Positions 21,895 to 36,267 of a stretch of DNA of 64,000 nt are shown here, piece by piece. The notes below the pieces were generated by a model, which was given only the letters and a program-made list of their open reading frames with translations, was not told the origin of the DNA and searched no databases. Position numbers and translations under genes: made by a program. Each line of letters begins with the position of its first letter. Within the stretch, counting starts at the first letter, position 1. The DNA comes from Marivivens aquimaris (GTDB lineage: Bacteria; Pseudomonadota; Alphaproteobacteria; Rhodobacterales; Rhodobacteraceae), in assembly GCF_015220045.1 (NCBI RefSeq), contig NZ_JADBGB010000001.1:62001-126000 (forward strand), written 5' to 3'.

Positions 21895-22773
21895 ATGTTC
21901 GACATGTCCACGTCCGCTCACGTCCTGCCGCAGGTCGCGGTGATGATGACCTTGCATCGCGGCGACCGCCTCGATCAGTTTGAAACCGCGCTCGGATCGG
22001 TGGAGGCGCAAGCGGGTGTTGCCGCCGTCCACGTCTACCTATGCTGCGACGGCCCGCTGCCTGTCGCGCATGAAGACTGGCTCGCCGCCAACCGCGACCG
22101 TTTCCACTGCGTGATCCGTAATCCCCGCTGCCTCGGCCTCGCGGAGTCGCTCAACCGCCTGATCGACATGCTCGGGGAAGAGCCCTTCGTCTTCCGTATG
22201 GATGGAGACGACGTCTCACACGCTGGCCGTTTCGCCGCTCAGATCGCGTACATGAACGATCACCCCACGCTCGGCCTCGTCGGCTGTCAGGTGGTGGATA
22301 TCGACGACGACGGTACACCTCTGGCCCGCCGCAAATACCCCGTCGCGCAAGAGGACGTGGTGCGTTCCCTCACGCGGGTCATTCCCGTGCTGCACCCGAC
22401 TTTCTGTATGCGCCGCAGTATCTTGCGCGACCGTAAAGCCCGTTACCCTGCCGCCTATCTGACCGAGGATCTGGCGTTTCTGGTGCGCCTGTCAGAGCTT
22501 GGCGTGCAGATCGGGAACTGCCCTCAGACGCTGTTCAGTTGGCGGACAGGGAAGGGCTTCTACCGTCGCCGCACCTCGGTCCGCCGCGGTCTGACCGAGG
22601 CAAAATGGTACGCCCGCGCAGTCTACAAGCAACACGGGCTGATTTCTGCGGGCTACGTTTACCCGATGTTAAGGCTTGGTCTGCGCATGATGCCCGCATC
22701 TCTCATGCGGTTGGTGTATCAAAGTAGCCTGCGCAGCCGCATCTCCCGCACCCAAGGCCCGACGGAGGCGTAA
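21895..22773 (+). CDS. Family 2 glycosyltransferase
   Basis: GT2 enzymes transfer a sugar from a nucleotide-sugar donor. The 292-residue protein has the N-terminal nucleotide-binding strand (VAVMMTLHRGDRLDQFETAL), NPRCLGLAESLNRLI and the DxD-containing FRMDGDDVSHAGRFAAQ near residue 100, then the acceptor block TEDLAFLVRLSELG near 190. No membrane helix is obvious. It is the first gene of the polysaccharide operon and its stop overlaps the next start as TAATG. Sugar specificity is unknown. Confidence 0.9.
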   Translation: MFDMSTSAHVLPQVAVMMTLHRGDRLDQFETALGSVEAQAGVAAVHVYLCCDGPLPVAHEDWLAANRDRFHCVIRNPRCLGLAESLNRLIDMLGEEPFVFRMDGDDVSHAGRFAAQIAYMNDHPTLGLVGCQVVDIDDDGTPLARRKYPVAQEDVVRSLTRVIPVLHPTFCMRRSILRDRKARYPAAYLTEDLAFLVRLSELGVQIGNCPQTLFSWRTGKGFYRRRTSVRRGLTEAKWYARAVYKQHGLISAGYVYPMLRLGLRMMPASLMRLVYQSSLRSRISRTQGPTEA

Positions 22774-24062
22774 TGCACATCCATATGCCCGCGCGCATGA
22801 TGCGTTTGCCCAACATCTCGGGCGACCTCGCGCTGGCGCTTTTGCTGACGCTCCCGTTCTGCGCCATGGCCAAACCGGGGTGGTTGGGAAACTTCGACGC
22901 GAACCTGTCGCTGTTCGTGCTGGTGCCTTTGCTGCCCGTCCTGTGGTTTACCCGCACATGGCGGGTCGTGCTGGTGCGCGGGCGAGGCGGCGTGATGCTC
23001 CGCGCAGTGGTTGGGCTGTTGTTGATCTGCGCGGTGTTTACCGTAATCGGAGGCGTGCGGTTGCACTTTGAGGGCGTCACCGCCTACGGCCTCGACCCGC
23101 TGCCAAAGTCACTGAAGACCGCCATCGTGCCTCTGCTGCTCGCAGTCTTCGTGACAGCCGCTGCAGCCGTCCCCAGCCTTGCGCGCCCCGCCGATCTGCA
23201 ATCCGCCATGGTCGCGGGCTTTGCCCTCGTCGCTGCGTACACGGCTATTCAGTGGGTATCTTTGGTCGCCCCAAACGCCATATATTCAATGCTTTGGCCC
23301 GCCATCGAAGGCGCGCGGGACAACGGCGGCGTCTCTGCTATCACCCGCTTTGGCCGCGTTACCGGCCCGACGATGGAGCCGGCCGAGCTCGCCAAACTCG
23401 CCATCCTGTTCTTCCTCCCGTGGTTCGCATTTCCGGCGGAGGGGCGGGCGAACATCTGGCTACTGCTGGGCGCTCTGACACTCGCCGCGCTGAGCATGTC
23501 GATCATCGGCCTCTTGCTCGTTGGCATGTCCGCCGTGCTGCTGATCCGCCACTTCCGATGGCTCGCGATAGTCGTCATCGCTGCTGCGGTCAGCGCTTCG
23601 CTGCTTCCGGGGCTGACGGAGCGCCTCGCGAACATCTCGCATGACCCCTCGGCCATCATCCGCAGTCACTACAACGCCGCCGCGCTGGGCCTCATCGCAG
23701 AGCGCCCGATCTTCGGCCTCGGCTGGTCGAACGAATTGTTCTTCTACCCCGAACGCGTCTCCGGCATCTCCCACCTTTGGGAAGTGTCCGAGGACCTCCG
23801 CACCGGCAACGCGCTCACCGCGAAAAGCCTGATGCTGCGCCTCGCGATGTACGCGGGGCTTCCCGTGCTCATCGGAACTATCTCCACCATCACTTGGGCT
23901 CTGATCGGGGGTCGCAGCCGAGCACTTTCCCGCGCTCGTTTCGCCTTAGCAATCTTCGCCATCGCCGGAGCCATCGACGGCGGCATGATCACCTCGCTCT
24001 ACCTCTGGGCGGGGCCGTCGCTTTGTATCGGTGCGCTCATCGCAGAGAGGCGAGCGCTATGA
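22773..24062 (+). CDS. O-antigen ligase/polymerase-like membrane protein
   Basis: This 429-residue protein has about ten to twelve hydrophobic segments and a large hydrophilic loop near residues 280-350 (RSHYNAAALGLIAERPIFGLGWSN), the layout of the Wzy/WaaL family. The loop motif ERPIFGLGWSN corresponds to the conserved xPxxGxGxxxF region. It would polymerise or ligate polysaccharide repeat units on the periplasmic side. It overlaps its neighbours on both sides (TAATG and ATGA). A second, unrelated-looking member of the same family is encoded at 32816. Confidence 0.8.
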   Translation: MHIHMPARMMRLPNISGDLALALLLTLPFCAMAKPGWLGNFDANLSLFVLVPLLPVLWFTRTWRVVLVRGRGGVMLRAVVGLLLICAVFTVIGGVRLHFEGVTAYGLDPLPKSLKTAIVPLLLAVFVTAAAAVPSLARPADLQSAMVAGFALVAAYTAIQWVSLVAPNAIYSMLWPAIEGARDNGGVSAITRFGRVTGPTMEPAELAKLAILFFLPWFAFPAEGRANIWLLLGALTLAALSMSIIGLLLVGMSAVLLIRHFRWLAIVVIAAAVSASLLPGLTERLANISHDPSAIIRSHYNAAALGLIAERPIFGLGWSNELFFYPERVSGISHLWEVSEDLRTGNALTAKSLMLRLAMYAGLPVLIGTISTITWALIGGRSRALSRARFALAIFAIAGAIDGGMITSLYLWAGPSLCIGALIAERRAL

Positions 24063-25225
24063 TCCGGCAGAGTTTTCTCGCGCTCGGACTTCGGCTCATG
24101 GCTGCCGGCATTGCCTACGCCACGGTCATGCTCTTTGGGCGCTGGATGACGCCACAGGACTACGGCGACTTTGTCATTGTGCTCTCGGGCCTCGGGTTCG
24201 GCGCGGTCATCGTCGGGCAGGGTTATCCGCTCATTCTGCTGCGCTACGTGCACGAGCCGAACGGAGGCGCCGCGCTCTCTGCCGCCAATTGCCGCGTGCT
24301 GATGATGGCCGTCGCGGCTGCGCTATTGGCGGCTGTCATCGCTCCGCGTCCCGCGCTGGCCTACGGCGCGCTGCTGCTCCCCGCCTTTGCCCTCTGCGAT
24401 ATCAGCGGCGCGGCTCTGCGCGCTCAAGGCAAGATCACCGCCGCGCTTGCGCCCCGCGATATCAGCTGGCGTCTGGCCCTGATCGGTCTCGCGCCTGCGG
24501 TAGGGTTTGGAGCGTCCGATCTGCTGATTGCCGCCAACTTCATCCTTTGGCCGATTGCCTTGGCGATGTGGGCTGCTGCGAGGTTGCCCCGAACTGGCCA
24601 CGCGCCACCGATGCAACGGCCCGCGCGGCGCGTCTGGACCACGATGCTGGCGAATGCGGGCCTCGCAAACCTCGATACGCTCTGTATCGCTGGGGTTTTC
24701 GGCCCCGAAATCGCAGGCCTTTACTTCGCCGCCGCCCGCACGGCGAGCCTCCCGTCCTTTGCCCTTAACGCCGCGAACATGGTCCTCGGCCCGCGCATTG
24801 CAAGGGCGCCTGTAGTCACGGACCTGAGAAAATCCGCGCTGTTCGGCGCGCTCCCCGCCTTCGCGGCATTTTTGGTGTTTTGGGTGGCGGGCGAGCGCAT
24901 CCTCGCGCTATTCGGCGAGCGGTTCACCAATATGTTGCCGGTCCTGCTGATCCTGTCTCTGGGCCAGGTCGTGAACGGAGCCGCCGGACCCGCTGGCCTC
25001 ATCCTGAATTTGCGAGGGCACGAGGCGTGCCACAGCCGCATCTCGCTATCGGCGTTCGTCGCAGCAATGATCGCTGTCCCGCTTGCGGCGCTGTTCGGCA
25101 GCCCGGTCACCGTGGCGATCACGTCGACCGCGATCCTCATCGCCTACGAACTCGCACTCTTGCGGGCCGCGACCCGTAAAACGGGGCTCTCGATTTCAGT
25201 CTTTTCCCAGGGGGCTCGCGGATGA
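24059..25225 (+). CDS. Wzx-like polysaccharide flippase
   Basis: The ATG at 24059 overlaps the upstream stop as ATGA and begins MIRQSFLALGLRLMAAGIAY, the usual start of a MATE/Wzx-type transporter; the open frame runs further left only by chance. The 388 residues contain about twelve hydrophobic segments, with GRWMTPQDYGDFVIVLS near residue 25 and LANLDTLCIAGVFGPEIAGLYFAAART near 200, which is typical of lipid-linked oligosaccharide flippases. It would move undecaprenyl-linked repeat units across the inner membrane. The stop overlaps the next gene as ATGA. Confidence 0.87.
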   Translation: MIRQSFLALGLRLMAAGIAYATVMLFGRWMTPQDYGDFVIVLSGLGFGAVIVGQGYPLILLRYVHEPNGGAALSAANCRVLMMAVAAALLAAVIAPRPALAYGALLLPAFALCDISGAALRAQGKITAALAPRDISWRLALIGLAPAVGFGASDLLIAANFILWPIALAMWAAARLPRTGHAPPMQRPARRVWTTMLANAGLANLDTLCIAGVFGPEIAGLYFAAARTASLPSFALNAANMVLGPRIARAPVVTDLRKSALFGALPAFAAFLVFWVAGERILALFGERFTNMLPVLLILSLGQVVNGAAGPAGLILNLRGHEACHSRISLSAFVAAMIAVPLAALFGSPVTVAITSTAILIAYELALLRAATRKTGLSISVFSQGARG

Positions 25226-27294
25226 AGGCACGTCTACTTCTCGCTCTTGGCATAAATCCACACCGGCGCGGGGTGGGGTCATTTTGGATCAAGATGGCCC
25301 AATATGTGGTCGGTTCGCTCGAACTTCTGCTGCTCTTTACGCCTTATGTGCGCACACTCGGACACTTGCCCAAAGTCGATCTGATGGTGGTCGGCGCACA
25401 AAAAGCGGGAACAACGTGGCTCGACGCCCAATTGCGAATATCGAGGGTTTGTCGCCTGCCTGACATCAAGGAACTCCATCATTTCGACAGGGGGCGATGC
25501 TGGACGCTGCGACGATATCTGAGGCAGTTAGGCAGAGCGACCGTTATCGAGATCGCGCCGGACTACGGGCCGCTGTCGGTGTGGCGTATCCACGCGATGC
25601 GGCGGCTGTTTCCGGACATGAAGGTCGCCATGATCCTCCGCCATCCGGCCGAAAGGGATTGGTCTGGCCTGCGTATGGAGATGGGTTTTGACAGTGGGCA
25701 GCCGCTTGGGGACGTTCCGGTGGCCGCGATGCTAGGCTATCTGAAATCCCGTCGCGGGCGTCGGTACAGCGACTACAGCACCCATATTGCAAGGTGGAGT
25801 GCCGTGTTCGGCCGCGAAAACCTGCTATTGGTGCCGTTCGATGATATTGCGCGGGATCCGGCGGGGGTGGTGGGGCGCGTTTTGAGCCATGCGGGTCTGG
25901 ACGCCGAAGCGCCGGTGATTTCGCCTGAGCCAGTATTTACCGGAGAGGCGCGAGACCCGCCACCCGCTGTCGCGGCTTTTTTGAACCGTCGGGCGCGGGC
26001 GCAAATTGCCAAGCTTCCGACACGGTGGGCGGAGCGGTGGGATCGGCAATTACAGGCTTTGCCGTCGGGTAAGTCCCTGTATATCTGCGGGTTTTGTCCG
26101 AACGACAGGTCGACGTCTTCGGGTCAGAAACTGGCGCATCGAAAGATCACTGAAATGGCGAAGCAATTCGCGCAGGTCGACGTTATTTATTTTCGGAACA
26201 AACTGGATCGTCTGGACCCTCAGCCAGCCAATTGGCCCACGAATGTGCGCATCCTGACGGACTTTGAAGTGGGTCCAAAGCAGCGCATTGTGGGCGCACT
26301 ACGCTGGCCTCACCTGCCGAAATTCGCCTCTGCGCGTCGCTGGGCGGCCGGGCGTCTGATTGGTAGGCTTGTGGAATCCGCAGACTATCGCGCGTTTTAT
26401 GCTGACTTTTCGCAAGGCGCGGGCGCGATACCAGAGGCCGCGCTGCCTCTGTTCGAATTTCGGCAACATGATGTGGTGTCGAAGCTTTACGATCGCATGG
26501 CGGATCAGCGCCCGATGTTGCGGCTTGAGGCGTTCCTCACGCGCCGTTGGGAGCAGCGGGTTTGGTCGCGCGTTGCCCAGGTGACGACCTTGTCCGAAGA
26601 GGATGCGGCGGAAATAGCTGCCTTTTGCGTGGAGGCCCGCGCCGAACCTGTGTCCGGGACGGTCGCAATCGCGAAGCCGGCCCCCGTTTCAGGGCGCATC
26701 ATTTTCTGGGGCAACATGGCCCGTGCGGAGAACGAGGACGCGGCGGTTCGGTTGGTGAACGACATCCTGCCGCGCGTGAAGATGGTAGTCCCCGATGCGC
26801 ATGTCTGGATCGTTGGCGCCCATCCGACGGAGAGGGTGCAAGAGCTGGCGAGCGGTGCTGTGACGGTCACAGGCTTCATCGACGACCCCGCGCCGGTTTT
26901 GGCGACGGCTGCGGTGGCTGCAGTGCCGCTCAAGCTCGGCTCGGGCGTGAAAATCAAGGTATTGGAGACGTTGGAGGGCGGCATTCCGACGGTGGTGTCT
27001 CCGGTGGGCGGGGAGGGGATCCCCGACCACCCGCTTTTGACCCGCGTGCTCGATGACGGCGCAATGGCGGACGCAATTATCGACATTCTGGCCGCTCAGA
27101 GTGTGCCGGCCGCAAAGAACGACATGCGGGAAATGGCAAACGGTGGAACCCAGTTGGCGTCGACCGAAATGGTAGAGAAGAAGTGCTCCGTCCCGCCAGC
27201 GTCCGTTGCGGCGATGTCGAATGTGCCCGTCGGTGCGGCCCAGTGGACGGCGTCGGCCTCGCGCAGCGCGGGCGCGCCTGAGGTTCCGATATAG
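25222..27294 (+). CDS. Sulfotransferase-glycosyltransferase (GT4) fusion protein
   Basis: One uninterrupted frame of 690 residues holds two enzymes. Residues about 45-270 are a sulfotransferase: VVGAQKAGTTWL is the PAPS 5'-phosphosulfate loop and ILRHPAERDWSGLRMEMG is the 3'-phosphate site. Residues about 285-625 are a GT-B glycosyltransferase: SLYICGFCPNDRSTSSGQK opens the first Rossmann half, and FWGNMARAENEDA, VTGFIDDPAPVLA and LKLGSGVKIKVLETLEGG form the donor half. The last 63 residues look non-homologous and overlap ghsB on the other strand. It overlaps the flippase gene by 4 bases. The likely role is adding and sulfating a sugar in the exopolysaccharide; donor and acceptor are unknown. 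Confidence 0.85.
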   Translation: MKARLLLALGINPHRRGVGSFWIKMAQYVVGSLELLLLFTPYVRTLGHLPKVDLMVVGAQKAGTTWLDAQLRISRVCRLPDIKELHHFDRGRCWTLRRYLRQLGRATVIEIAPDYGPLSVWRIHAMRRLFPDMKVAMILRHPAERDWSGLRMEMGFDSGQPLGDVPVAAMLGYLKSRRGRRYSDYSTHIARWSAVFGRENLLLVPFDDIARDPAGVVGRVLSHAGLDAEAPVISPEPVFTGEARDPPPAVAAFLNRRARAQIAKLPTRWAERWDRQLQALPSGKSLYICGFCPNDRSTSSGQKLAHRKITEMAKQFAQVDVIYFRNKLDRLDPQPANWPTNVRILTDFEVGPKQRIVGALRWPHLPKFASARRWAAGRLIGRLVESADYRAFYADFSQGAGAIPEAALPLFEFRQHDVVSKLYDRMADQRPMLRLEAFLTRRWEQRVWSRVAQVTTLSEEDAAEIAAFCVEARAEPVSGTVAIAKPAPVSGRIIFWGNMARAENEDAAVRLVNDILPRVKMVVPDAHVWIVGAHPTERVQELASGAVTVTGFIDDPAPVLATAAVAAVPLKLGSGVKIKVLETLEGGIPTVVSPVGGEGIPDHPLLTRVLDDGAMADAIIDILAAQSVPAAKNDMREMANGGTQLASTEMVEKKCSVPPASVAAMSNVPVGAAQWTASASRSAGAPEVPI

Positions 27295-27998
27295 CTGGTG
27301 CCAGCCGCGCCCTGTTCGAACTGCGCGGCTAGCAGGATGACGTCCTCGCCTGCTACCGCGCTGCCCGGACCGAAGCCGATATTCAGATCGCCCGTGTAGT
27401 TCGGCGTGAACTGGATAGTGAGGCGAAGAGCGCCTCCGATGGGAACGATCGCCACGTCTCCGATAGTGCCCGCGTCGATGGCCTCGACGACGATGCCTTG
27501 GTCGATGAGGATGCGCGTTTCCGTGCCGCCCGCGTTGTCGCGCAGGATGCAGCGGGCCTTGCCGGAGGTGCCAAGGATGAGCCACGCGGACAGGCAATAG
27601 ACCTGACCGTCGGTAACTGGCGGACGGTTGGTGTGGAGAAGCCGGTGCCAAGTGGCTCCGTTCGAGCTGATCCGGCACCCGTCGAAACGGCCAAGCGCGG
27701 CGAGCGAAAGCATCTCTGCACTGCCGCCCGACGCCGTCCAGCCGCCTGCGATATCTGCAGCGCTGAAGTGTAGGAGGTTGGTGGACGCGCCCTCGATCAG
27801 CGCGGCGGGAACGCCTCCGGTATCCGAAGTGCGCAGCGTGTTCGCGGGGGCGTCGATAAACGCGCCGCCAGCGATGCTGATCCCCGCGCTATCGCGCTGA
27901 ACGCCGAAGCCGGCGGGGTAAACCTGCCGCGCGATGTCCCATGTGGCGATGGGGGCGGCGACCGCGCGGGTCGCTTGGAATTTCACGCTCGTTTTCAT
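27096..27998 (-). CDS. ghsB: Phage-type head spike fibre protein, GhsB-like (gene transfer agent)
   Basis: The ATG at 27998 (MKTSVKFQATRAVAAP) overlaps the upstream stop as TGATG and gives 300 residues. The sequence shows the pattern of phage head spike fibre proteins: LIEGASTNLLHFSAADIAGGWTASG near residue 75, then a beta-rich jelly-roll-like domain (YCLSAWLILGTSG, LRLTIQFTPNYTGDLNIGFG) and a glycine-rich end. With the upstream gene it matches the Rhodobacter capsulatus pair rcc01079-rcc01080, which encodes GTA head spikes that bind the polysaccharide capsule (established for that species; identity here is from memory of the family). The 3' end overlaps the sulfotransferase fusion by 199 bases. 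Confidence 0.78.
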   Translation of the reverse strand: MKTSVKFQATRAVAAPIATWDIARQVYPAGFGVQRDSAGISIAGGAFIDAPANTLRTSDTGGVPAALIEGASTNLLHFSAADIAGGWTASGGSAEMLSLAALGRFDGCRISSNGATWHRLLHTNRPPVTDGQVYCLSAWLILGTSGKARCILRDNAGGTETRILIDQGIVVEAIDAGTIGDVAIVPIGGALRLTIQFTPNYTGDLNIGFGPGSAVAGEDVILLAAQFEQGAAGTSYIGTSGAPALREADAVHWAAPTGTFDIAATDAGGTEHFFSTISVDANWVPPFAISRMSFFAAGTL

Positions 27999-28264
27999 CA
28001 CCAGCCCACCATGATGCCGGAGGCCGTGGTGCCAGTGGCGTGGATGCGGGTCGCCTCGATCAGGTGCCAGCCTCCGTTCAGCGCGGGGGTCGTCAGCGTC
28101 TGCCCGCCCGCGGTGGTCAGCGTGACCGCGCCGCCGTCCGCGAGGTAAATCCACTGCGATACGACCGGCAGATCGGTGTCATCGGACGGCGTGACATTGG
28201 CGAGGTTCGCGGGGCCGCCAGCGCGGCTGCGGGTCTGCGAGGCGTAGGGATCGTGAGCGGTCAT
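27998..28264 (-). CDS. ghsA: Spike base protein, GhsA/Rcc01079-like (gene transfer agent)
   Basis: The ATG at 28264 follows AGGAG with eight bases between. The 88-residue product starts MTAHDPYASQTRSRAGG and continues NVTPSDDTDLPVVSQWIYL, then short beta strands (GGAVTLTTAGGQTLT, NGGWHLIEATRI) and ends GTTASGIMVGW. This is the form of the spike base family named after Rcc01079: a small beta protein that joins the spike fibre to the head. It is the first gene of a two-gene unit with ghsB. No other GTA structural gene is nearby, as in R. capsulatus, where these two genes lie away from the main cluster. Confidence 0.8.
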   Translation of the reverse strand: MTAHDPYASQTRSRAGGPANLANVTPSDDTDLPVVSQWIYLADGGAVTLTTAGGQTLTTPALNGGWHLIEATRIHATGTTASGIMVGW

Positions 28265-28432
28265 GGGGTGTCTCCTGTGCTTTGATCCGGACATTAACGC
28301 GGAGCGTTTAACGGGCGCCGAAGGGTGCGTACGGTGCTCTTTTCGCGAATGCAGCATTGCTTTGACTGGGCGGGGCGGGGTACTCCTATGCGCATTGCAA
28401 AGCCCTTTTCATTGGTAAATTTGGAGTTTTCC

Positions 28433-29818
28433 GTGGCACCGAAATTCGGAACGAGTGGTCTGCGTGGTCTTGTGACCGAACTGACCGACGATCTTGTCGG
28501 CGACTACACCCGTGCGTTTATTGACGCTTGCCAGCATGGCTCGCGCATTTACGTGGGTCAGGATCTGCGTCCGTCCTCCGAAAGCATCGGCGAGGCTGTC
28601 ATCCGCGCGATCCGCGAACAGGGCGTCGAAGCGGTCGATTGCGGCGTGGTGCCGACCCCCGCGCTGGCTCTCGCTGCGAAAGGTGCGGGCGCGGTGATGA
28701 TTACCGGCAGCCACATTCCCGCGGACCGCAACGGCCTGAAATTCTACGTGCCGACGGGCGAAGTGTCCAAGGCGGACGAGCAGGCGATCGTCGCGGCATA
28801 CGATGCCAAGGTCGCGCCCGCTGGCAAGGACGCGCCGGTCGTCGAATACGGCGCGATCGCGCCCTACGTGGACCGCTATGCCCGCGCGTTCGGTGACACG
28901 GCGCTCGCCGGTTTGCGCATCGGCGTTTACCAACATTCCTCGGTCGCGCGCGATGTGATGATGGCGGTGATCGAACGTTTGGGTGGTGAGGGCGTTGCGC
29001 TCGCGCGGTCTGACGCGTTCATTCCCGTCGATACCGAAGCGGTCGATCAGGGCACCCGCGATATGCTGCGCGGTTGGTGTGCGGAGCATAACCTGTCGGC
29101 TGTGATTTCCACCGACGGTGACGCGGACCGCCCGATGGTGACGGATGGCGAAGGCAATGTGATCCCCGGCGATATCCTCGGCGTTCTGACCGCGCGGATG
29201 CTCGGTGCAGAGGTCGTCTGCACGCCGGTGTCGTCGAATTCGGTTGTCGGAATGCTGCCGGAGTTCGGCACCGTTCACATGACCCGCATCGGCTCGCCCT
29301 TCGTGATCGCCGCGATGGAAGAGGCGCTGGCCGAAGAGGGCGCGAAGGTTGTCGGGTTCGAGGCCAACGGCGGGTTCCTCCTCGGGTTCGAGGCGGACGC
29401 GCCAGCCGGAAAGCTGGAGCCGTTGATGACCCGCGATTCCATTCTACCGATCGTTGCGCCTCTGGCTGCAGCGAAGGCTGCGGGTCGCACCGTGGCTGAG
29501 TTGGTGGCGGAACTGCCGCCGCGCTTTACCGCTGCGGACCGCGTGACGGAAACGCCGACCGATAAATCGAAGGCTCTGCTGGCGGAATTGTCGGAAGACG
29601 CTGCGAAGCGTGCGGACTTCTTTAGCGCGCTGGGCGGGGTTTCGAATGTCGATCAGACCGACGGTCTGCGTGTGACATTCGAAAGCGGTGATGTCGTTCA
29701 CCTGCGCCCGTCGGGCAATGCGCCCGAGTTCCGCGTTTATGCGGAAGCGAGCACGCCGGAACGTGCTCGCGAATTGGTCGACATGTATATGGAAACGGTC
29801 GGTAGCGCGCTGCGATAA
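28433..29818 (+). CDS. manB: Phosphomannomutase
   Basis: The enzyme interconverts mannose 6-phosphate and mannose 1-phosphate (possibly also the glucose phosphates). I chose the GTG at 28433, because GGAG lies six bases upstream and the protein then begins MAPKFGTSGLRG, the normal family start; an in-frame ATG at 28388 would add 15 unrelated residues. The catalytic phosphoserine loop is TGSHIPADRNG, the metal site is STDGDADRP, the sugar-binding loop is GFEANGG and the phosphate-binding loop is RPSGNAPEFRVY. Length is 461. Its product is the substrate of the guanylyltransferase at the window start. It is divergent from ghsA. Confidence 0.93.
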   Translation: MAPKFGTSGLRGLVTELTDDLVGDYTRAFIDACQHGSRIYVGQDLRPSSESIGEAVIRAIREQGVEAVDCGVVPTPALALAAKGAGAVMITGSHIPADRNGLKFYVPTGEVSKADEQAIVAAYDAKVAPAGKDAPVVEYGAIAPYVDRYARAFGDTALAGLRIGVYQHSSVARDVMMAVIERLGGEGVALARSDAFIPVDTEAVDQGTRDMLRGWCAEHNLSAVISTDGDADRPMVTDGEGNVIPGDILGVLTARMLGAEVVCTPVSSNSVVGMLPEFGTVHMTRIGSPFVIAAMEEALAEEGAKVVGFEANGGFLLGFEADAPAGKLEPLMTRDSILPIVAPLAAAKAAGRTVAELVAELPPRFTAADRVTETPTDKSKALLAELSEDAAKRADFFSALGGVSNVDQTDGLRVTFESGDVVHLRPSGNAPEFRVYAEASTPERARELVDMYMETVGSALR

Positions 29819-32042: not shown

Positions 32043-32816
32043 TCAGGTTTGAAAGAGAACTATCGTGTCGTCGTCACGCAAGATACGCGCAGCGGTCAAT
32101 TTGCCAGTTTTGTAGGCACCTGTATCAATATTGATGCGATTGGGATGCTGCTCTACTTCGTTGACGATTACATGACCATGGATGAGAAAATTCTCGCCCT
32201 GGTACGCATCGGTGTCGCTGGCATCACCCCACATGAGGGTCGAAGGGGTCTGCTGTTCGAGCGGCAGACCAAGCTCGTAAGTCGCATGGGCAAAGCGGTA
32301 GCGGCCGACTTCGAGCGCGACCGGAAGATTCTTGAGGAATGTCTGGTGCTCCTGCGGAACGGCAGCTTCGGTCATGTGCGACAGCTTGGACGGCGAGGCG
32401 CTGAAGTTGCCTTCGGCGTCCGGTTTCAGGCCGTAGGACAGCATCGTTTCGGTGCCGCCCCAGACCAGCCAGTTCATGTTGTCGGACGGATCTTTGATGA
32501 ACTTTATCATCATGTCTTCGTGGTTGCCGCGAATGGCGATCCGCGTGAAACCCTTGGGGGCAGGGGACATGAAGTGCTCGATCACGCCGCTGCTGCCGGT
32601 CGAGCGGTCGATGAGGTCGCCAAGGCTGACGATCAGTTTCGGGCCTGCGATATTGGCGCCGTCCGCAATGATCTGCTGTTCGAGCTTTTGCAGCAGATCG
32701 AGACGTCCATGGATGTCACCGATCGCGTAGATCGCGGCAGGCATGGACGGAAGGCGGAGGAGTTTCGTGTCGGGTTTAGGCTCGGCAGGTTCGGACTTTC
32801 GGAAAAGCTTGAACAT
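32043..32816 (-). CDS. PPP-family metallophosphatase in the exopolysaccharide operon
   Basis: The start ATG at 32816 overlaps the upstream stop as TGATG, giving 257 residues. The three metal-binding signatures of PPP-type phosphatases are present: GDIHGR near residue 34, GDLIDR near 67 and RGNHE near 96, with later histidines in FAHATYELG and LIHGHVIV. The family includes serine/threonine protein phosphatases and diadenosine tetraphosphatases. Its place between a polymerase gene and the tyrosine autokinase gene suggests it acts in polysaccharide control, for example on a phosphorylated partner. The substrate is not shown by sequence. Confidence 0.88.
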   Translation of the reverse strand: MFKLFRKSEPAEPKPDTKLLRLPSMPAAIYAIGDIHGRLDLLQKLEQQIIADGANIAGPKLIVSLGDLIDRSTGSSGVIEHFMSPAPKGFTRIAIRGNHEDMMIKFIKDPSDNMNWLVWGGTETMLSYGLKPDAEGNFSASPSKLSHMTEAAVPQEHQTFLKNLPVALEVGRYRFAHATYELGLPLEQQTPSTLMWGDASDTDAYQGENFLIHGHVIVNEVEQHPNRINIDTGAYKTGKLTAARILRDDDTIVLFQT

Positions 32817-34294
32817 CAAGCGGACTTTCTACGGAAATTGGCAACACCAAGTGCCAGAATGATTACAAATACAAAATTAACGCCCGGAAACTCGAAGCTG
32901 AAATCAACGAGAGAGTGCAGCGCTGCCTGCACGATAACACCGCAAGCGACGGCTGGCCCGATAAATCCGTGCTCGCGGCGTTTCCACGCAGCAAATGATG
33001 AAACAAACGCCATTGCGACGATCGCAGGAGGAATGCTGCCCAAGATGACGCCAGCTTCGCTCCAGAGCGCGAGGTAGGTGTTGTGGGCTCTTTCCCAAAT
33101 TAAAGTCGTGCTGACTTCGTCTCTATGGAAAATTTCGAATGCGATCTGGTAATTGTCAAAACCGTAACCAAGCAGGGGATGTGCTGCGATCATCGTCAGG
33201 GTCTGGCGGTAAAGTTCGATGCGGCTATCTGAGTCTCCCGCAGTGAAGATCGCCCGCTCGATCACCCCTTGGCCGAAGCTGAACAGGAACACGGTGCCAA
33301 ACACAGCTCCGACACCGACCAGCCAGAGGGCGGTTTTCCGCATTTTCACTCCGGCCTTCTTGTTCATGAGAAGCAGCGTGACAACGCCGCCGACAACGGT
33401 GGCGGCCATGCCTGCGCGGGATTGGGTCGCAAGAAGTGTGCCGCCCATGAGCGCAAGCATGCAAAGGCGCATCGCGGCCTCGATATGACGGGGGGTGATG
33501 CCTTTGCTCCCGCCAGGACGACGCATTTGCGGTTCATTGAACTTTTTTATGGTCACCGCGATGCCGGTGATGATCCCCATTCCGATGAACGTGGCAAAGG
33601 TATTGCGGTTTACAAAGGTGCCGGTCGCGTAACCGAGGTAGTAGGTCTTCTCACCCCAGAGGAAGCTGTCACCGAGGAACGAGAACGTAATCAGCGCAAA
33701 TACCGCGTGGACCAGAATGCCGTAGAAAATCCACGACATCATGCGTTCGACGCGGTTGATGTTCTCGGCCACCCCGAGCGCCACGATGAAAACAAGCGCA
33801 TAACTGCACCAGCGGATGATGCCTTGCAGAGAGGGGCCGCCGGCAAGGGTCAGCTTGGCAGTCTCGATGATTGTGCCGTCTTGCAGCCCAATCTCGCGCC
33901 CGATGGGCAGGAACTGCAGCAGCAGGCCGATAACGAACAGGGCGCCAGCAATCGTGATGAGGGGATGTTGGGTGATCGGCGGCTTTCTCTTCGGGTCGAT
34001 CTGATAGATGACCAGCATTTGCAGGGTGCAGAGCACTGCGGCAGCAATCGCCAGCATCATTTGCGGCACAGGACGCGCGCCGCCCAGCGGGATCGGCGCG
34101 ATCAGTGCGAGCAGGACGACCAGCACGGAAAAGATGTTGTTGGCCTGACTGGTGGAGGCGGCGCTCGGCTTGCCTTCGTCACGGGCCACCATCACTTCTT
34201 CGAACACAATCTCGGCGGAGTCGGCTTGCGCAGTTGTCTGGGTCGTCTCGCGCTTTTCTTTGAGCTTGTCTTCGAAGTTATTGAAGTCGATCAC
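32816..34294 (-). CDS. O-antigen ligase-family polysaccharide polymerase
   Basis: The 492-residue protein has a soluble N-terminus of about 50 residues, then ten to twelve membrane helices. Family markers are GTFVNRNTFATFIGMG near residue 235, TQSRAGM near 290, and the periplasmic loop HPLLGYGFDNYQIAF followed by ERAHNTYLALWSEAG near 400. These are classic O-antigen ligase/polymerase motifs. It lies 3 bases after the gene at 34298 and overlaps the phosphatase gene, so the operon is tightly coupled. It is the second polymerase-like protein of the region and belongs to the Wzc-type module. Confidence 0.87.
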   Translation of the reverse strand: MIDFNNFEDKLKEKRETTQTTAQADSAEIVFEEVMVARDEGKPSAASTSQANNIFSVLVVLLALIAPIPLGGARPVPQMMLAIAAAVLCTLQMLVIYQIDPKRKPPITQHPLITIAGALFVIGLLLQFLPIGREIGLQDGTIIETAKLTLAGGPSLQGIIRWCSYALVFIVALGVAENINRVERMMSWIFYGILVHAVFALITFSFLGDSFLWGEKTYYLGYATGTFVNRNTFATFIGMGIITGIAVTIKKFNEPQMRRPGGSKGITPRHIEAAMRLCMLALMGGTLLATQSRAGMAATVVGGVVTLLLMNKKAGVKMRKTALWLVGVGAVFGTVFLFSFGQGVIERAIFTAGDSDSRIELYRQTLTMIAAHPLLGYGFDNYQIAFEIFHRDEVSTTLIWERAHNTYLALWSEAGVILGSIPPAIVAMAFVSSFAAWKRREHGFIGPAVACGVIVQAALHSLVDFSFEFPGVNFVFVIILALGVANFRRKSA

Positions 34295-34963: not shown

Positions 34964-35192
34964 GAATCCTCCGTCATGGTGTTAAGTAATTTGGTCGTCG
35001 TTTTCTTAATACTATCGTTCATTAGATGCCACGATAGGCGACAATTTGTTCAATATACTCGCAGAACGTTGTTTTAGGGTAACCGAAATGGTAACGAATG
35101 GTGGATATCAATGCCAACGGGTATTCTGCACTTGCAAAAGGGTAGTGCCTGTGGCCCTAGTTGAAGAAATTAGCCCCACACGAGGTAGTACG

Positions 35193-35618
35193 ATGAAAAA
35201 TGTTTTTAAAGTTCTCGCAGTCTCGGCGGCCCTCGCTGGCGGCACTGCAACCACCACTTTCGCCCAGGGCGTAACCATCACCACCCAAGCTGAGCTCGAG
35301 GCACAGTGCACCGTCGCTCCGGAAACTTGCGCAGCTCTCGTTGCACAGTTCGGTGCTGCTCTGGCTGCTGCCAACGCTCCGGTGAACCAGATCGCACAGC
35401 TCGTCGCTTACGCGAAGCAGTTCGTGGCCCAGAACCCGGTATACCGCGAAGTTATGGCCGGTTCGGTTGTAGCGGTTGCTTCTTCGGTTGCTAACGGCGC
35501 TGCAACCAATCCCGGTTACACCGCGTTCGCTTCGCAGGTTGTGGCTGACGCTCAAGACATCGATCCGGGCGTCGACTCCGGCACCGTTGTTGGTCAGAAC
35601 CCGGGCTCGCCGGCTTAA
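35193..35618 (+). CDS. Small secreted alanine-rich protein, paralogue 1
   Basis: The ATG at 35193 has GAGG seven bases upstream and opens a clear signal peptide (MKNVFKVLAVSAALAGG, cleavage likely after TTFA). The mature part of about 118 residues is alanine- and valine-rich. It has two cysteines as C-x6-C (AQCTVAPETC) and ends GTVVGQNPGSPA. It resembles the product of the gene at 35833 throughout, including the cysteine spacing and the GTVxGQ end. I do not recognise the family. A strong terminator follows. It is divergent from the Wzc operon. Confidence 0.75.
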   Translation: MKNVFKVLAVSAALAGGTATTTFAQGVTITTQAELEAQCTVAPETCAALVAQFGAALAAANAPVNQIAQLVAYAKQFVAQNPVYREVMAGSVVAVASSVANGAATNPGYTAFASQVVADAQDIDPGVDSGTVVGQNPGSPA

Positions 35619-35640
35619 TAGCTGCGACACAGAATTGATG

Positions 35641-35670
35641 AAAAGGCGGGCCTTCGGGTCCGCCTTTTTT
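35641..35670 (+). terminator. Strong terminator with UUCG tetraloop after paralogue 1
   Basis: AAAAGGCGGGCC, loop TTCG, GGTCCGCCTTTT and further T form a 12-pair stem with one G-T pair. This is a textbook intrinsic terminator. Confidence 0.92.
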
Positions 35671-35832
35671 CGTTCCAGAGCCTTAACACGCAGGCCATGA
35701 GCGGAGTTTAGCCCGCTAGTTGCGATGTTAATGGGCTTGCGACTTATGCGAGAAAAATTCCGCTTGTGAGACTCATGAAACGGTGCACTAGCTCGGCCAT
35801 CGGGCGCTTTTGCCCTTTCGAGGTAGTTAAAG

Positions 35833-36267
35833 ATGAAGAGTGTTATCAAGTCGGCCGCTCTGGTTCTGGCAGTTGCGGGTATGTCCACGGCGCCAGTTTT
35901 CGTGCCGCAAGCGCAGGCCCAACAGGCCATCATCCAAGTCACATCGCTGGAAGAACTGATCGCGCAGTGTAATGCCGATCCGGCTATCTGTGCGACGCTG
36001 ATCGCGAGCTATGGTGCGGCGCTGGTCGCAGCGGGTGCTTCGGTTGAGCAGCTCACTGCCCTGTCGAACTTTGCAGTCGACTTTTCGAACGGCGCGGGTG
36101 CTGCGTATCGTTCGGCGATTGCTGGTGCGATCATTGCGGTTGCGACCCAAGCCGCCAACAATCCGGCCTATATCGGACTGGCATCGCAGATGGTTGCCGC
36201 AGCAACGACGATTGACCCGAACGCTGACGTTGGCACCGTTGGTCAGGCTCCTGCTTCGCCGACCTAA
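35833..36267 (+). CDS. Small secreted alanine-rich protein, paralogue 2
   Basis: The 144-residue product has a signal peptide ending near QAQAQQ. Its mature part follows the same plan as the product at 35193: SLEELIAQCNADPAIC with C-x6-C, a long alanine-rich helical middle (GAALVAAGASVEQL, AGAIIAVATQAANNPAY) and the end GTVGQAPASPT. GAGG lies a few bases before the ATG. It has its own terminator, so the two genes form a tandem duplication with separate transcripts. Function is unknown; a matrix or surface role is a guess from the position beside exopolysaccharide genes. Confidence 0.75.
   Translation: MKSVIKSAALVLAVAGMSTAPVFVPQAQAQQAIIQVTSLEELIAQCNADPAICATLIASYGAALVAAGASVEQLTALSNFAVDFSNGAGAAYRSAIAGAIIAVATQAANNPAYIGLASQMVAAATTIDPNADVGTVGQAPASPT

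Follow-up and report, generated by a model that had tools for sequence, protein, structure and literature searches.

Two adjoining genes on the minus strand at 27096-28264 of the window (the whole 64-kb stretch of DNA that was analysed) were found to encode a head-spike base and a head-spike fibre of the gene transfer agent (GTA) type, placed within a locus for polysaccharide synthesis. We consider it probable that the pair is a linked ligand-receptor cassette, in which the head spike of the bacterium's own GTA is kept with the genes for the surface polysaccharide that it binds. A sequence-only reading of this DNA had likened the two-gene unit, without naming its strand, to ghsA-ghsB and had placed it between a polysaccharide operon (21895-27294) and phosphomannomutase with a Wzc-type operon. 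Profile searches of the two proteins bore out the likeness, and Pfam and HMM matches confirmed the neighbours. The genes concerned are as follows.

21895..22773, plus strand: glycosyltransferase family 2 (GT2), PF00535
22773..24062, plus strand: Wzy-like polymerase/ligase, PF04932 at 26.3 bits, below the cut-off of 31.7
23777..25225, plus strand: Wzx flippase-like ORF, matched by a Wzx HMM from related loci; start probably further downstream
25222..27294, plus strand: sulfotransferase and GT4 glycosyltransferase, PF13469/PF00685 and PF13692
27096..27998, minus strand: head-spike fibre gene, ghsB / rcc01080 type, 300 aa; NF048003, 6tb9_F3
27998..28264, minus strand: head-spike base gene, ghsA / rcc01079 type, 88 aa; NF048002, 6tb9_E3
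28325..29818, plus strand: phosphomannomutase/phosphoglucomutase, divergent from the spike operon; PF02878, PF02879, PF02880, PF00408
29837..31966, minus strand: Wzc-type (Wzc/Wzz) chain-length regulator, PF02706 at G000:C1:93661-93930, within the ORF
32816..34294, minus strand: Wzy/O-antigen-ligase-like protein, PF04932 at 79.8 bits

The spike base scored 74.2 bits against NF048002 (RCAP_Rcc01079 equivalog, NCBIfam; cut-off 28) and the fibre 104.2 bits against NF048003 (GTA spike-fibre domain, NCBIfam; cut-off 36), and the two proteins matched the head spike base chain 6tb9_E3 (E 1e-4) and head spike fibre chain 6tb9_F3 (E 3.4e-6) of the RcGTA structure in the PDB. Sequence comparison thus confirmed the pair as a spike base and fibre of the Rcc01079/Rcc01080 kind, the curated cut-offs being passed and a chance match ruled out. 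The base gene is read first (28264-27998), its first ATG preceded by AGGAGA, which resembles a ribosome-binding site, and the fibre gene follows (27998-27096), with the stop and start codons overlapping as TGATG. A single copy of the spike base was present in the 4.05-Mb assembly to which the window belongs, and the fibre was 94% identical to that of Marivivens donghaensis HF1; M. donghaensis has the pair at 94-97% identity. Pfam and PADLOC gave no family covering base or fibre, and a tblastn search of phage records returned no match to the base and only four distant matches to the fibre. A PHROGs label of tail fibre/tail protein for the pair was dropped, the NCBIfam models being more specific. 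No signal peptide was apparent at either N-terminus, as judged by reading the sequence. The predicted model of the fibre, made from eight sequences, was of modest confidence (mean pLDDT 68.6). When compared with the PDB by Foldseek its top two matches were phage tail fibres (E 3e-6), followed, at low TM-scores, by carbohydrate-binding modules (E 3e-3 and weaker), while matches in BFVD were to phage proteins (E 3e-9 and weaker); these structural matches to tail fibres and carbohydrate-binding modules are suggestive only.

The sulfotransferase-GT4 ORF (25222-27294) and the fibre gene converge and have 199 bp in common, tail to tail. The GT4 domain match stops at residue 624, roughly where the fibre gene ends, and as the ends of the fibre and of related fibres line up, the extension responsible for the overlap belongs to the glycosyltransferase gene. 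Tail-to-tail overlaps were also observed in M. donghaensis (199 bp, L105) and in the genome G201 (91 bp, L103). As the sequence-only reading had stated, no other GTA gene was found nearby: a tblastn search (E 1e-3) of the 64-kb window with ten structural proteins from the GTA of the same genome gave no matches. Elsewhere in the window, at 35046-36267, two adjoining paralogous small proteins are encoded which have hydrophobic N-termini and a common C-terminal motif.

An RcGTA-type cluster was located in the same genome, 1.38 Mb from the spike pair. Nine of ten scanned cluster proteins matched named families (megatron at 1794.7 bits, NlpC peptidase, hub, distal tail, RcGTA tape measure, tail tube, head-tail connector, capsid and portal), and the large terminase was recognised by eye. 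The genome contained one match to DUF6456 (171.5 bits, cut-off 26.3), which we take to be a domain of GafA/GafZ and whose profile also matches in Caulobacter; judged by this domain, the genome has a putative GafA-type activator gene.

In the family (Rhodobacteraceae sensu GTDB, following the placement of Marivivens) NF048002 was present in 63 of 198 genomes, and in a sample of 385 genomes from across the class it was present in 11, two of which belong to the family. All seven Marivivens genomes carried it, with exactly one base copy each, and these congeners also carry the GTA capsid gene. The capsid matches of three of the seven (G117, G200 and G201; L191, L193 and L194) contained one in-frame stop each, perhaps a sign of a decaying GTA or perhaps the edge of the open frame. 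The GTA megatron was detected in 179 of the 198 family genomes, namely 61 of 63 with the spike and 118 of 135 without it, so the presence of a GTA predicts little about the spike. Two family genomes (G114 and G141, the latter a single-contig assembly) had a spike base and no megatron match.

Linkage of the spike to polysaccharide genes was far above that of controls. In 24 of 68 genomes Wzz (PF02706) was found within 20 kb of the spike, against 1.5 expected under random placement, and in 22 of 63 once five further Marivivens genomes were left out; matches to PF02397 were kept out of the statistics. Counted by copy, it was within 20 kb of 25 of 75 spike copies, from which a broken fragment (G100:C15:459-542) was left out, and of none of the 54 megatron copies listed (45 genomes). 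For a wider count, HMMs for 14 polysaccharide families were derived from the gene clusters of spike and control regions taken together, with a check against Pfam; controls were random 20-kb regions from the same contigs (64 drawn, 60 used), and matches were counted by distinct ORF so that one Wzc matching several models counts once. At least two distinct polysaccharide ORFs were present at 46 of 75 spike loci and in 2 of 60 random regions, and at least one at 53 of 75 and in 5 of 60, a contrast which is partly post hoc as the HMM clusters come mainly from spike loci; this does not apply to the Wzz counts. Seventeen of the 75 spike loci and none of the controls were shorter than 20 kb. With six Marivivens relatives removed, 42 of 69 spike loci had two or more polysaccharide ORFs. 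Because genomes of one family share ancestry, the loci in all these counts are not independent. ABC transporters (17 spike and 23 control loci) and SDRs (6 and 9) were not enriched. The 53 linked loci formed 4 groups when one shared flank gene (45% identity or more) was enough to join them, 23 when two were called for and 35 when three were, indicating that they are of many kinds, though the common ancestry of some is clear. The arrangement, published for one species, was thereby confirmed to be wider than the sequence-only reading had claimed, and the interpretation in that reading is as a whole supported.

At 22 of the 75 spike loci none of the 14 polysaccharide families tested was present. 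Among the commonest 25 of 108 Pfam families found in 93 of the nearest ORFs, the neighbours at these unlinked loci looked mixed and mostly housekeeping, with a few phage portals and integrases. The ten own-GTA structural queries gave no match at any of the 75 spike loci. These queries do match at L182, a 12-kb locus of a genome from another alphaproteobacterial family (G303), where the base and a fibre-like gene are situated within a TerL-portal-capsid-connector-tail cluster, the base lying between the capsid and connector genes. This arrangement may be the ancestral place of the spike base. Including L182, nine loci lay outside the family: three from one family (L179, L180 and L183) carry Wzy together with genes for Wzc, GT2 or Wzx, L185 had a Wzx match only, at the locus edge, and four others had none.

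The proposal that spike and receptor synthesis are inherited together was examined in the seven Marivivens genomes (21 pairs, with two near-identical pairs), using identity of the major capsid protein (MCP) as the phylogeny control, and it held for the base, while the fibre did not reach significance. Given capsid identity, the base co-varied with the shared flank genes (rank partial Mantel 0.71, exact P 0.0008), whereas over the 21 pairs the fibre did not do so significantly (0.13, P 0.27); the fibre signal may be saturated at 25-35% identity. As there are few genomes and the base is physically linked to its flank, the co-variation shows block inheritance and not binding. Single comparisons with the window's genome (G000) illustrate the pattern. 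For G201 the MCP identity of 69% was the lowest of the six values, and yet base (64%) and fibre (45%) were both second highest, five flank genes were common, the GT2-Wzy-Wzx-sulfotransferase/GT block among them, and its fibre was the nearest to that of G000 from a different species group. G199 and G117, with 80% capsid identity, had bases of 28-29% and no flank genes in common. G202 had five genes in common (phosphomannomutase, Wzc and others), with base at 50% and fibre at 29%, a pattern in closer accord with the base than with the fibre.

The ORF that follows the base was tightly coupled to it in most loci and showed great variety of sequence. From 84 loci we hand-picked 57 downstream ORFs (gap -25 to +15, 150 aa or more), leaving out contig-end ORFs (L050, L066, L090), L096 and loci with no qualifying ORF; some downstream ORFs in the wider set are probably wrong frames. 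An apparent base fusion in L090 (668-aa ORF) was rejected, since the reading frame there appears to have been extended upstream. NF048003 was matched by 15 of the 57 proteins, a SASA carbohydrate esterase family by four (L060, L068, L082, L106) and a GDSL hydrolase family by two, and the rest matched single families or none; the GDSL match of the L048 protein was below cut-off. The downstream ORFs of L108, L110 and L181 read as phage genes, and DUF2213 and terminase matches among the set agree with this. Head spikes bearing SASA domains could possibly be coat-deacetylating spikes of GTA or phages. In RcGTA-type head spikes an N-terminal peptide of alternating (iso)leucines plugs the base pentamer, and the pattern h-G-h-x-h, derived from the published base-binding peptide, was present in 18 of 57 downstream proteins and in 17 of 2315 control ORFs, a background that uses mechanical ORF starts. 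An earlier, looser plug pattern had been drawn after seeing the data. Since the pattern occurs on unrelated downstream proteins, unrelated distal parts appear to share one kind of plug. The fibre of the window starts MKTSVKFQ and does not match h-G-h-x-h; its V5 and F7 alternate, as in the MKFTCDFS class.

On the reading that we favour, the small base would form pentamers on the capsid vertices and the fibre would reach outward. By analogy with R. capsulatus, the spike genes would be co-regulated with the polysaccharide genes, spikes would be added during GTA production to particles encoded by the distant main cluster, and the fibre would bind the surface polysaccharide made by the surrounding genes. 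We infer such expression, assembly and binding for this bacterium. If the fibre does bind the product of its neighbours, particles would stick first to cells with the same coat. Where coat genes are swapped by a lineage, the matching spike would tend to go along, being in the same locus, and selection for matching of spike and coat would maintain the linkage.

The linkage could instead be a by-product, polysaccharide loci acting as recombination hot spots that collect phage genes with no functional tie between spike and coat. Polysaccharide loci are often exchanged, the 22 of 75 unlinked loci fit such a process, and so does the lack of significant co-variation of the fibre. Against incidental collection stand the lack of a match to any other GTA structural gene at the 75 loci (ten own-GTA queries), the single base copy kept in each of the seven Marivivens genomes, and a base that tracks its flank genes beyond the MCP phylogeny. 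In R. capsulatus, moreover, passages of PMC10218006 describe a spike that binds the capsular polysaccharide (CPS) made next door. We therefore regard this explanation as rather unlikely.

Less likely again, and in our estimation improbable, is that the pair is a prophage relic or serves resident phages instead of the GTA. The same base is found on phage contigs (14 loci, at least 8 with a plug-like protein after it), phages of R. capsulatus carry homologues according to parts of PMC8601537, and the L182 base has TerL, portal, MCP and connector genes around it. Against a relic, the window retains an intact two-gene operon with AGGAGA and gave no GTA structural match, and the pair is kept in 7/7 congeners, which carry the GTA capsid gene. 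Megatron is also present in 61 of 63 spike-bearing family genomes, though in 118 of 135 spike-less ones too. A role at the producer's own surface, e.g. as a lectin-like protein of the cell surface or biofilm tied to its polysaccharide, would suit the site within a polysaccharide locus and the weak Foldseek matches to carbohydrate-binding modules, but with no signal peptide apparent at either N-terminus by reading, and with a base family that takes its definition from the spike base of the RcGTA capsid, we give it very little weight.

Returning to the ligand-receptor cassette, the pair in the window is ordinary-looking but real, and the wider pattern is the interesting part if upheld. We put forward tentatively, as a possibility rather than an expectation, that spikes of this family are modular cartridges in polysaccharide loci, each combining a conserved base with a short base-binding plug and with an exchangeable part that binds or edits sugars (lectin-like, or an esterase of the SASA or GDSL type), inherited with the fitting coat genes so that ligand and receptor form one greenbeard-like kin-recognition unit. 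If this is true, the unit would steer GTA DNA to cells with the same unit, which would help explain the upkeep of costly GTA production. A recurrent linked spike-receptor locus, block-swapped within a genus, would make gene-exchange partners predictable from the spike-coat cassette, and esterase-bearing spikes would predict coat-editing particles. On the question of how GTA producers keep the benefits among their kin, sections of PMC10883770 argue that specific polysaccharide receptors could be the means.

Adjacency as such is not new, as it is in print for R. capsulatus, where according to portions of PMC10218006 the GTA spikes bind CPS and the CPS genes adjoin the spike genes and are co-regulated with them. 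In the literature searched, from which older key work may be missing, family-wide linkage, exchangeable spike parts and block swaps were not met. The R. capsulatus phages RcapNL and RcapMu carry spike homologues, as excerpts of PMC8601537 report. Phage head fibres and spikes share the base family with the window, but the ten GTA queries found no phage structural gene beside the pair in the window; conversely, the 14 phage-contig loci (L195-L208, one scan) gave no polysaccharide HMM match. The RcGTA tail spike TspA, as described in part of PMC13420450, is likewise an ectopic GTA accessory gene dealing with extracellular polysaccharide, but its product is a different protein, tail-borne and detachable, encoded at another locus. 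The closest counterpart is RcGTA GhsA/GhsB, which, going by those portions of PMC10218006, the window pair resembles in both families, gene order, site outside the main GTA cluster and polysaccharide neighbours, and from which it differs in its divergent sequence (28-30 bits in phmmer), in its other polysaccharide genes and in the tail-to-tail overlap of fibre and sulfotransferase-GT genes.
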